Below are positions 18,972 to 23,420 of a stretch of 34,346 bases of DNA, piece by piece. A program made the position numbers and the translations under genes. Under the pieces are notes generated by a model. It ran no database searches and was not told where the DNA came from. It saw only the letters and a program-made list of their open reading frames with translations. This DNA is from Gammaproteobacteria bacterium (GTDB taxonomy: Bacteria > Pseudomonadota > Gammaproteobacteria > Chromatiales > Chromatiaceae). Where the stretch lies: positions 1 to 34,346 of the forward strand of contig JASJBU010000001.1 in the NCBI GenBank assembly GCA_030066355.1, in the 5' to 3' direction. Position 1 is the stretch's first letter; each line of letters starts with the position of its first letter.

Positions 18972-19973
18972 TCAGGCGCTCTCGGCTTTTTGCCGTCTGT
19001 CCAGCAGGTTGTGGACGGCCTGTTTCGGATCCAGGCCCGCAAACAATACCTGATAGACCTGTTCCGAGATGGGCATCTCCACCGCGCATTTCTGAGCCAG
19101 TTTATAGACCTCCTGGGCGGTATGAATGCCTTCAACCTCTTGACCGATTTCCTCACGGGCCGCTTCGATGCTGAGTCCTTTGGCCAGGGCGAGCCCCATG
19201 CGGCGATTGCGGGATTGATTGTCGGTACAGGTCAACACCAGATCACCCAGGCCGGCCAGACCCATGAAGGTTTCGGTGTGGCCGCCCAGGCGGGTGCCCA
19301 GGCGCATGATCTCGCTAAGACCACGGGTGATCAACGCGGCACGGGTGTTCGCGCCAAACCCCAGACCATCGGCGATCCCCGCGGCGATGGCCAGCACGTT
19401 TTTGCTTGCGCCCCCAACCTGGACACCGATCATGTCATCGCTGGTATAGGCCCTGAACCAGGGCGCATGCAGATAGCCGGCGAGTTTTTCTGCGTGTTGC
19501 AGGGAGTCCGAGGCGACAGTAATGGCGGTAGGCAGGCCCCGTGCGACCTCACCGGCAAAGGTCGGTCCGGAAATCACCGCCAGGTTCCGTGCAGGCAGGA
19601 GGGCTTTGGCCACGTCTGAGAGTAGCTGTTGGGTGCCGGGCTCGAAACCTTTGGTGGCCCAGGACACCCCGGCTGTCGGGGGCAGTAGGGGTAAGAGGGT
19701 CTGGGTCACGGAACGGAAGGCGTGGCTCGGGACCACGATCAATACCTCGTCCGCACTATCCAGGGCTGCCGCCAGGTCGGCCATTGGCGACAAGGTATCC
19801 GGAAACTCGATGCCCGGCAAATAGCGCTTGTTCTGCCCGTCCTCGGCAAGCCGGGCAATCTCGTCCGGCATGCCCCAAAGCCTTACATCCAGCCGGTTGT
19901 GACTCAGCAGGATCGCCAGGGCGGTGCCCCAGGAGCCTGCACCCAGTACCGCAATGGAGCCCGGATTATTCAC
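18972..19973 (-). CDS. gpsA: Glycerol-3-phosphate dehydrogenase [NAD(P)+]
   Basis: A 333-residue enzyme, standard length, that reduces dihydroxyacetone phosphate to sn-glycerol-3-phosphate for phospholipid synthesis. The protein starts at GTG (complement of 19971-19973), overlapping the secB stop by one base, and runs NNPGSIAVLGAGSWGTALA (Rossmann motif). Further marks are ISGPTFAGEVARGLPTA, the catalytic-lysine region VGGASKNVLAIAAGIADGLG and NTRAALITRGL. The frame stays open upstream to 20342, but that part is out-of-phase secB sequence. The one-base overlap implies translational coupling with secB, as the pair is arranged in E. coli and relatives. Confidence 0.96.
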   Translation of the reverse strand: MNNPGSIAVLGAGSWGTALAILLSHNRLDVRLWGMPDEIARLAEDGQNKRYLPGIEFPDTLSPMADLAAALDSADEVLIVVPSHAFRSVTQTLLPLLPPTAGVSWATKGFEPGTQQLLSDVAKALLPARNLAVISGPTFAGEVARGLPTAITVASDSLQHAEKLAGYLHAPWFRAYTSDDMIGVQVGGASKNVLAIAAGIADGLGFGANTRAALITRGLSEIMRLGTRLGGHTETFMGLAGLGDLVLTCTDNQSRNRRMGLALAKGLSIEAAREEIGQEVEGIHTAQEVYKLAQKCAVEMPISEQVYQVLFAGLDPKQAVHNLLDRRQKAESA

Positions 19974-20455
19974 TAATGTTTGGCGGTGGATTGATCGTCC
20001 GCCGCTTTCTTGGCGAGTTCCTGCTGATGCTGGGCGTACAGGGCATCGAAATTGACCGGCTGCAGCAGCAGTTGGGGGAAGCTCCCTTTGGTGACCAGGT
20101 CCGAGACCACTTCCCGCACATAGGGAAAGAGTAGATTCGGGCAGTATGAACCGAGCAGCGGCCCCATCTCCTGTTCTGGAAAGCCGTTGATGCCGAAGAT
20201 CCCAGCCTGTTTGACTTCGGCGAGATAGGCCGTTTGGTCGCTGATTTTGGTCGTGATGGTGACGGTCAGCATGACTTCGAACACTTTGTCGGACAATTTG
20301 GCGACTTCGGTATTCAGATTCACGCTGGATTCCGGTTTCCACTCCTTTTGAAAGACCGCAGGGGAGTTGGGCGTTTCGAAGGAGATGTCCTTGGTGTAGA
20401 TTCGCTGGAGTGCGAATTCGCGTTTAGGTTCTTCCTGTTTGGCTGCTTCTGTCAT
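19973..20455 (-). CDS. secB: Protein-export chaperone SecB
   Basis: A 160-residue tetrameric chaperone that keeps preproteins unfolded and delivers them to SecA. Diagnostic segments are [19 protein letters not shown] at residues 14-32, FEVMLTVTI in the core strand, and [19 protein letters not shown] around residue 102-120, where SecA and substrate bind, followed by [17 protein letters not shown]. The upstream rhodanese gene ends 18 bases before the ATG, and gpsA starts inside its stop codon, so rhodanese-secB-gpsA is a likely operon, matching the yibN-grxC-secB-gpsA order of enterobacteria without grxC. Confidence 0.97.
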
Positions 20456-20473: not shown

Positions 20474-20893
20474 TTATTTCTTTCTGGTAATGGGAAGGTT
20501 TGCACTCTGCCAGGCCAGTATTCCCCCGCGAAGATTATAGACCTGCTCGAAACCCTCTTTCTTCAGTTGTTGGCAGGCGGCCTGGGATTGTGAACCTGAG
20601 CGGCAACTGACGATGATCGGCTGCTCTTTGTGCTTGTTGAGGCTGTTGATCTGATTTTTGAAGCCGTTGATCGGGATGCTGATCGCATTGATGATGTGAC
20701 CCTTGTGAAAATCGGCAGCCGGACGAACGTCCACCACGACGGCATTCTGGTGGTTGATCATTTCGGTGGCGCTTTGCGGATCGACACTGCCTTTGGTTCC
20801 CAGCAGCAGGTTGTGTATCAGTAAACCTGCGACAACCAGGAATGAGAGCACCAAGACCCAGTGATTCATCGTAAATTCGATGAGTTGTTGCAT
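20474..20893 (-). CDS. yibN: Membrane-anchored rhodanese-like protein (YibN type)
   Basis: A 139-residue protein with one N-terminal membrane helix (about residues 11-31, WVLVLSFLVVAGLLIHNLLL) and a single rhodanese domain. The domain has VVVDVRPAADFHKGHIINA and the active-site loop VSCRSGSQS with the persulfide-forming Cys97, ending in NLRGGILAWQ. It should carry sulfane sulfur as a cysteine persulfide on the cytoplasmic side of the inner membrane. The position directly before secB-gpsA is the conserved YibN context. A putative persulfide-sensing ArsR-family gene lies about 400 bases upstream on the same strand, which makes sulfur-responsive control worth considering. Confidence 0.92.
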   Translation of the reverse strand: MQQLIEFTMNHWVLVLSFLVVAGLLIHNLLLGTKGSVDPQSATEMINHQNAVVVDVRPAADFHKGHIINAISIPINGFKNQINSLNKHKEQPIIVSCRSGSQSQAACQQLKKEGFEQVYNLRGGILAWQSANLPITRKK

Positions 20894-21288
20894 GTAAAGC
20901 CTCGTTGCTTGATGAGAGGAGAGATCAAAGGGGTGAGAGTGTATAACAGTCGCGTGTCTTGGTTAACCCGAAAATGTGCCCGTGAACCGGTCAGTCAGTT
21001 TGTGATTCCTGCGTAAAACCCTATGAGCGAGTGAATTGTTAGTGTATCTCTCTGTAAAACAAAGGATTGTTAGGGCTGGCTGAAGACATCAACAAGGGCT
21101 GTGCTGAGCAGACTGCAACAGCAAGCGGTATTCTCAAGCTTATCCCAGACGCCTCAACATAGGTTCAAGGATTGCGTATCTTGCGCGTAACGGGCTGCTT
21201 CATGGGTGTTCAGCAAGCGACTGTCCGGTCCCGGCACAGCTTGGGTACCGGTACCAGCCCGTACCTGTGGCGTCTCGATGAGACCTGC
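20894..21288. other. Intergenic stretch, 395 bases, between the ArsR-family gene and the rhodanese
   Basis: No convincing gene. On the reverse strand just after the ArsR-family stop there is a perfect GTCTC/GAGAC stem with a 3-base loop (21272-21284) and a GGTACCGGTACC palindrome (21244-21255), without a T-tract. Nearer the rhodanese start a TATACA (reverse strand, about 20943-20948) could be a -10 element. The last 10 bases before the rhodanese ATG hold a weak CGAGG ribosome site. Confidence 0.45.
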
Positions 21289-21648
21289 CTAGGTGTGAGT
21301 GCAGAAGACCTCGCGCATCATGCCGATGAGTTTCAGGGTTCTGAAATCACTGACCCGATAGTAGACCCTGTTGGCGTCTTTGCGTGAGGCGAGTATGCCT
21401 TTGTCGCGCAGGATCGCCAGATGCTGAGAGATATTGCTTTGAGAGGTGCCGACCTGCTCGACGATGTCCTGTACGCTGACTTCTTCGTCGCCCAGCGTGC
21501 AGAGAATTTTCAATCTCAACGGATGGGACATGGCCTTCAATGAGCGAGAGGCTCGGTCAATGTCATCGTCATTGGCGAAGAGAGCTTCCATCTCACTGGT
21601 GTCCGTATTCAGAATGGGTCTGTTGGTTCGACTGAATTTATGTTCCAT
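21289..21648 (-). CDS. ArsR-family transcriptional regulator with SqrR/BigR-like cysteine pair
   Basis: From the ATG at 21648 the protein is 119 residues, the usual ArsR size; the frame is open for 29 more codons upstream but those look non-coding. It has a winged helix-turn-helix: ASRSLKAMSHPLRLKILCTL, then the recognition region VGTSQSNISQHLAILRDKGI and the wing RKDANRVYYRVSD. The metal site of classical ArsR (CVCxL) is replaced by VSVQD. Only two cysteines occur, Cys50 in KILC and Cys116 in EVFC. Their separation of 66 residues equals that of Cys41/Cys107 in SqrR and Cys42/Cys108 in BigR, which sense persulfides through a polysulfide bridge. I infer a sulfur-responsive repressor; the target could be its own promoter, the rhodanese downstream or the divergent gpmI. 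Confidence 0.88.
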   Translation of the reverse strand: MEHKFSRTNRPILNTDTSEMEALFANDDDIDRASRSLKAMSHPLRLKILCTLGDEEVSVQDIVEQVGTSQSNISQHLAILRDKGILASRKDANRVYYRVSDFRTLKLIGMMREVFCTHT

Positions 21649-21665
21649 GGGCGCAAGCCTTTCAC

Positions 21666-21686
21666 TAATACCTAATACAATAATAC
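21666..21686. promoter_or_regulatory. Three TAATAC repeats upstream of the ArsR-family gene
   Basis: TAATAC occurs at 21666-21671, 21673-21678 and 21681-21686, within 40 bases upstream of the ArsR-family ATG and in the divergent region shared with gpmI. The spacing of 7-8 bases is not a full helical turn. They could be part of an operator or simply an AT-rich promoter element. Confidence 0.3.
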
Positions 21687-21866: not shown

Positions 21867-23420
21867 ATGAAGGAGATCCCAAAGCCCGCCGTTCTGATCA
21901 TCCTGGACGGCTGGGGTTATAGCGAAGATCATGAAGCCAATGCGATTGCAGCGGCCAATACCCCGGTTTGGGATAATTTGTGGCGGGACAACCCGCATAC
22001 CCTGATTCGGACCTCAGGCGCATCGGTGGGTCTGCCGGGTGGGCAGATGGGTAATTCTGAAGTGGGGCACCTGAATCTCGGGGCGGGACGGGTGGTCTAT
22101 CAGGAGTTTACCCGGGTGGGGCGTTCCATCCGCACAGGTTCCTTCTACACCAACCGGACCCTGACCCGAGCCGTGGATGAGGCGATAAAGTGGCACAAGG
22201 CGGTGCATTTGGTCGGGCTGCTCTCGACCGGCGGGGTGCACAGTCATGAAGAGCATATCCATGCAATGGCCCGCTTGGCCGTCGAAAGAGGGGCCAAGCA
22301 GGTCTACGTCCATGCGTTTCTGGATGGTCGGGATACCCTTCCGAAGAGTGCGGACAAATCGATTCGAGCGCTGAACGAGGTGTTCAGGGAACTGGGTCGG
22401 GGCAAGATCGCCAGTGTTATCGGCCGTTATTACGCCATGGACCGGGATCATCGATGGGACCGGATCAAATACGCCTATGACCTGCTGGTGGACGGAGCCT
22501 GTGAATTTCGAGCGGCCAGTGCCTGTGATGCTTTGGATGCAGCCTATGCAAGGGGTGAATCCGACGAGTTTGTCAAGGCAACGGCCATCACAGCGGACAA
22601 CGAGGAACCGGTGCGTATCGAGGACGGTGATGTCTTGTTGTTCCTTAATTACCGGTCGGATCGGGCAAGACAGCTGACACGTGCCTTCATCGAGCGGCAA
22701 TTCGATGGTTTTTCCAGAGCACGTGTGCCCAAGCTCAACCGCTTCGTCAGTCTGACTCAATATAAAAGCGATTTCGATATACCGGTGGCCTTCCCCCCGG
22801 AAAAGATCAGCAATTGTTTCGGTGAATACGTCTCCAAGCAGGGTATGCGGCAGCTACGGCTCGCAGAAACCGAAAAATATGCCCATGTGACCTTTTTCTT
22901 CAACGGTGGTAGAGAAAAACCATTCGAGGGAGAAGACCGCATTCTGGTTCCCTCACCCCGGGTGGCCACCTACGACTTGCAACCGGAGATGAGTGCGGCA
23001 GAGGTGACGGATGAGTTGGTGAAGGCGATTCAGGGCGGTAAGTACGATGCCATCATCTGCAACTACGCCAATTCTGATATGGTGGGCCATACCGGGAAAC
23101 TGGATGCGGCGATCCGCGCTGTCGAGACGATCGACAGCTGCCTGGGTAGAGTCAGCCAGGCGCTCCATGAAGCCGGGGGTGAGATGCTGATCACCGCTGA
23201 CCACGGAAACTCAGAACAGATGATCGATCACAAATACAATCAAGCACATACCGCCCATACCTCGAATCCTGTACCATTGATTTATGTCGGCAGACATGCG
23301 CTACTGGATGAAAATGGCGCACTCTGTGACATCGCCCCGACTTTGCTCAAGATGATGCACCTGCCACAGCCATCCCAAATGAAGGGGCATCCGTTGATCC
23401 AGTTTCTGGACGGGGCCTGA
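21867..23420 (+). CDS. gpmI: 2,3-bisphosphoglycerate-independent phosphoglycerate mutase
   Basis: A 517-residue alkaline-phosphatase-superfamily enzyme interconverting 3- and 2-phosphoglycerate with two manganese ions. The start is ATG 21867, with CGAGG 6 bases upstream; a TTG 24 bases earlier is unlikely. The N-terminus reads [13 protein letters not shown] with the metal-binding Asp, and [15 protein letters not shown] carries the phosphorylated Ser64. Further on are [59 protein letters not shown] and [11 protein letters not shown]. All active-site segments look intact. The gene begins the gpmI-envC-ctpA-yibQ run conserved in gammaproteobacteria, and its stop overlaps the envC start by one base (TGATG). 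Confidence 0.97.

Follow-up and report, generated by a model that had tools for sequence, protein, structure and literature searches.

Most persulfide sensors known in the ArsR family have been described as controlling sulfide detoxification, sulfur oxidation, virulence or pigment. Those of the SqrR/BigR type carry one cysteine in helix α2 and one in α5, about 66 residues apart, and have a rhodanese or sulfurtransferase gene nearby. They correspond to cluster 4 of the ArsR sequence similarity network, which includes SqrR, BigR, HlyU and YgaV; its proteins use this same pair and are encoded near rhodaneses, and in HlyU the pair is reported to react with persulfides, whereas H2O2 and GSSG leave it unreacted (PMC10509353). 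The structurally characterized relatives include SqrR of Rhodobacter capsulatus (6o8k-6o8o), BigR of Xylella fastidiosa (3pqj, 3pqk), the haemolysin gene activator HlyU of Vibrio (4k2e, 3jth) and NolR of Sinorhizobium (4omy, 4omz), which has no cysteines. In the alphaproteobacterium Hyphomicrobium denitrificans, the ArsR repressors sHdrR and SoxR respond to sulfane sulfur and have shdr and sox genes as their targets (PMC12423496, PMC10451225). A separate line of work concerns YibN of Escherichia coli, whose gene is reported to form one operon with grxC, secB and gpsA and which is cited as a working partner of the membrane insertase YidC (PMC12282094).

The window, a stretch of 34,346 nucleotides from a member of the Chromatiaceae, encodes an ArsR-family repressor of 119 amino acids on the minus strand at 21289-21648, stop codon included. 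Its frame runs from the ATG at 21648 to the final codon at 21292, followed by the stop at 21289-21291, and the plus strand holds no open frame across the same interval. The protein matches Pfam HTH_5 with 48.3 bits (cut-off 22). Translation bears out the statement of an earlier note on this DNA that there are exactly two cysteines separated by 66 residues, Cys50 within KILC and Cys116 within EVFC. The same note had described the classical ArsR metal site as missing, and rightly so: the α3 region reads EEVSVQDIV, with VSVQD and no CxC at the place where E. coli ArsR aligns LCVCD (ELCVCDL). When the protein is compared with PDB sequences, BigR is nearest (67 bits, E 1e-17), YgaV, SqrR, NolR and HlyU follow at 56-59 bits, and Rv0081 (44 bits) and then the metal sensors come clearly below. 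A first place for BigR does not make the protein a BigR, since it scores 77.9 bits against the NCBIfam equivalog NF040642, whose curated cut-off is 155. Resemblance to NolR lies in the recognition-helix region (SQS..SQHL), whereas the two conserved cysteines set the repressor apart from it. The cysteines of sHdrR are numbered Cys50 and Cys116 as well, a likeness by residue number.

The AlphaFold2 model (mean pLDDT 82) places α2 at 43-52 and α5 at 102-115, with Cys50 inside α2 and Cys116 immediately past α5. It superposes without gaps on SqrR 6o8k over 93 residues (Z 15.3, 36% identity), residues 25-117 lying on 16-108 of the chain and the two cysteines falling on Cys41 and Cys107. The best fold match, HlyU 4k2e (Z 16.7), aligns equally gaplessly, 26-117 on 14-105, and puts the pair on positions 38 and 104. 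In sequence alignment the two cysteine columns likewise meet those of SqrR, BigR, YgaV and HlyU 4k2e without gaps. The spacing and helix positions that had been likened to SqrR and BigR are thus reproduced in the predicted structure, one cysteine in α2 and one at α5. The metal sensors CzrA and SmtB give similar fold scores, so the signal sensed is not deducible from the fold alone.

That last point bears on the idea that the pair answers oxidants or a metal instead of sulfane sulfur. Cysteine pairs are chemically versatile, the metal-sensor folds score equally high, and the generic NCBIfam metalloregulator model gives 86.4 bits (cut-off 55). Against these stand the α3 helix devoid of CxC, the selectivity of the HlyU pair for persulfides over H2O2 and GSSG (PMC10509353) and the linkage to a rhodanese described below, and we regard a thiol-redox or metal sensor as very unlikely. 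The persulfide-sensor reading fits because of the cysteine register, the missing CxC, the closest solved relatives, the rhodanese linkage and the presence of dsrA and soxB in the organism. It is on these grounds that the earlier proposal of such a sensor stands well supported as a prediction, but the phylogeny does not join the group to SqrR, BigR and YgaV. In a tree of 85 columns that includes partial reference sequences, the repressor group forms its own clade (UFBoot 86), groups with a partial Rv0081 sequence (UFBoot 99) and is not placed within the known sensors, which come together with a UFBoot of 39. Besides this separate clade, the repressor differs from SqrR in being only 35-37% identical to it and in having a different neighbour gene, with no adjoining sqr.

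Orthologs of the repressor are present in 145 of the 147 genomes of the order, and matches with E values of 1e-15 or lower occur in 150 of the 274 genomes of a class-wide sample. Median identity across the class reaches 79% for the repressor, compared with 76% for PyrD, 66% for GpmI, 56% for GpsA, 53% for SecB and 42% for the rhodanese. A protein that is near-universal in its order and more conserved than most of the surrounding enzymes suggests an everyday job. Among 200 homologous sequences, one paralog included, 199 retain Cys50 and 196 retain Cys116, and a broken frame accounts for one exception; with such retention the pair is not there by chance. Three genomes as small as 1.0-1.1 Mb (G185, G287, G399) also retain the gene. 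By fold and presumed chemistry the repressor is an ordinary kind of protein, with extraordinary conservation and a fixed partner.

This partner is a YibN-type rhodanese encoded on the same strand at 20474-20893, which has an N-terminal hydrophobic helix as membrane anchor and a single rhodanese domain whose loop CRSGSQ contains the active-site Cys97. It precedes secB (19973-20455) and an open reading frame at 18972-20342 that contains gpsA, with the true start internal, both also on the minus strand; secB may belong to the same transcription unit. On the other side, gpmI (21867-23420, plus strand, ATG at 21867 chosen by eye) diverges from the repressor. The neighbours are therefore those named in the earlier note. 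Anchor, single rhodanese domain and the ensuing secB and gpsA recall the E. coli unit, from which the window departs by a regulator standing between gpmI and the rhodanese and by the lack of a glutaredoxin gene between the rhodanese and secB. No ArsR gene is known at the E. coli unit, and a search of the open-licence literature found no published ArsR gene adjoining secB, gpsA or gpmI.

In a survey of 198 loci, where short contigs were scored as missing, the rhodanese occurs at 187, always downstream and on the strand of the repressor, and is opposed at none; a sulfurtransferase neighbour is thus shared with the SqrR/BigR type, whereas the gene that HlyU activates is a haemolysin gene. The rhodanese itself retains its active-site cysteine in 185 of 188 loci and its N-terminal hydrophobic stretch in as many (185/188). 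Co-directional secB (173/198) and gpsA (166/198) are frequent and never opposed. The gap between repressor and rhodanese has a median of 143.5 bp and can be as short as 3-14 bp. In the window it measures 395 bp (20894-21288), so a single repressor-rhodanese transcript is not certain here. This gap, which exceeds that of most relatives by about 250 bp, contains short repeats only, with no terminator-like site and no second copy in the genome; an insertion was considered as its origin and set aside, neither a second copy nor an explanatory repeat having been found.

The same survey weighs on a different possibility, namely that the main role of the repressor is to control gpmI and the secB-gpsA block, hence glycolysis, export and lipid synthesis. 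Divergence of gpmI across a shared intergenic region in the window speaks for it, as do the frequent co-directional secB and gpsA and the operon organization of yibN in E. coli (PMC12282094). However, gpmI is divergent in only 130 of the 198 loci and was not found in the other 68, where envC often adjoins instead and where regulator, rhodanese and promoter element persist in many cases. The predicted -35 of gpmI is some 67 bp away from the element, and several loci have additional genes between the rhodanese and secB. We consider this assignment highly improbable. The earlier suggestion that sulfur controls the neighbourhood is accordingly supported only in part: the rhodanese is the constant partner, control of gpmI or glycolysis is not supported, with gpmI retained as a neighbour, and read-through may extend control to secB and gpsA.

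Promoters of the orthologs share the element TATTATTGTAT[A/T]A. The copy in the window, GTATTATTGTATTAG, occupies 21672-21686 on the minus strand and overlaps the predicted -10 of the repressor promoter in an operator-like position. As an exact 13-mer the element was found in 46 of 144 genomes of the order, almost always as a single copy at the repressor promoter, and a reversed control pattern gave near zero across these 144 genomes. It also remains at loci where gpmI is absent. In the genome of the window, 21672-21686 is the sole site with fewer than two mismatches. A further motif on the minus strand, ATTAG-N9-AA at 21661-21676, overlaps the element and fits the published degenerate NolR consensus, although it is weak alone. 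ATTAG half-sites are part of the likeness to NolR, yet the NolR consensus was rejected as an operator model, as it occurs upstream of 29% of the orthologs, with 13% in shuffled sequence as background, and thus fits a minority of these promoters. Upstream of homologs from another class and of further relatives lies the palindrome TATTAG-N6-CTAATA, neither arm deviating by more than one base (21/36 and 8/12 loci; zero in one shuffle set). It fits the published NolR site (A/T)TTAG-N9-A(T/A), which supports it as a candidate site for this type of repressor.

The distribution of the element can be set against a broader function, in which a sulfane-sulfur sensor would govern many genes, in line with the wide regulons reported for YgaV and NolR, with the rhodanese a mere neighbour and the conservation reflecting many DNA targets. 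The excess of the repressor (79%) over the rhodanese, SecB, GpsA and GpmI (42-66%) in class-wide identity is what such a role would produce, and the repressor is kept in the three 1.0-1.1 Mb genomes, two of which lack the rhodanese active site. An exact pattern would also miss weak sites. On the other hand, the strong element is practically unique in each genome and sits at the repressor's own promoter. The few additional sites, in the genome of the window and in the 144 genomes of the order, lie at unrelated genes, so that a wide regulon operating through strong sites is not supported; we judge the broader function unlikely. In the two small genomes in question (L142 and L143; 1.0-1.1 Mb, dsrA present), Cys97 of the rhodanese is gone and the adjoining repressor retains Cys50 and Cys116. 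The rhodanese therefore cannot be the sole purpose of the repressor there.

Most likely, then, the repressor is an autoregulated sulfane-sulfur switch for its own gene and for the YibN-type rhodanese, mainly in sulfur oxidisers. This reading builds on features established here, the gene and its predicted fold, the register and conservation of the cysteines, the rhodanese linkage and the conserved promoter element. A homodimeric winged-helix repressor would read cytoplasmic sulfane sulfur. In its reduced state the dimer would occupy 21672-21686 over its own -10 and repress its own gene together with the co-directional rhodanese. Low-molecular-weight persulfides or polysulfide would then bridge Cys50 in α2 and Cys116 at the end of α5 within one protomer, and the bridged dimer would leave the DNA, allowing repressor and rhodanese levels to rise together. 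For the chemistry of the bridge, the release of DNA and the sense of the regulation, the scheme follows SqrR, BigR, HlyU and SoxR (PMC10509353, PMC7315123, PMC10451225). With these borrowed steps included, we hold the complete scheme to be probable. If correct, it would link sulfur status to a YibN-type protein and make a clear sulfane-sulfur switch accessible to study in purple sulfur bacteria that can be cultured, Thiocapsa and Allochromatium among them.

The connection with sulfur oxidation extends beyond the window, whose genome carries both dsrA and soxB. Taking the 130 genomes of the class sample with a match at E 1e-35 or better as ortholog-bearing, dsrA or soxB is present in 109 of them against 17 of 144 genomes without an ortholog, a contrast inflated by shared ancestry; the remaining 21 of the 130 have neither gene. 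The only intact-frame orthologs to have lost Cys116, replaced by valine, are L171, L174 and L198. Their genomes (G366, G250 and G357) are all without dsrA and soxB (Fisher 0.008, with approximate denominators). As G366 and G250 belong to one family, the loss represents at most two independent events, and its tie to genomes lacking dsrA and soxB is suggestive only.

In another class of the phylum (L246-L261, L263-L273, L286-L293), regulator and rhodanese are paired on one strand at most loci. The position of Cys50 is there taken by V, A or D, and all readable homologs carry Cys36 in α1, Cys102 at the start of α5 (GDCK) and Cys116, so the thiols have moved. These homologs constitute natural variation for probing the cysteine requirement. 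A more ambitious reading, which we put forward tentatively and hold to be rather doubtful, would see a vertically inherited core switch for sulfane sulfur that survives even in genomes of 1 Mb and, in sulfur-oxidising Gammaproteobacteria, couples the state of sulfur to a YibN-SecB-GpsA unit for envelope building, the moved cysteines (Cys36/Cys102 with Cys116) representing a changed sensing chemistry at one locus in another class.

Two ArsR proteins only were found in the genome of the window. The second, L222 (7352-7792 on contig C285), is a paralog 55% identical to the repressor with both cysteines present, and the promoters of this paralog and its relatives are devoid of the element. It adjoins response-regulator-like genes on one side and a glycogen-phosphorylase-like open reading frame on the other, and its relatives (L203-L221) have the same arrangement with a signalling gene.
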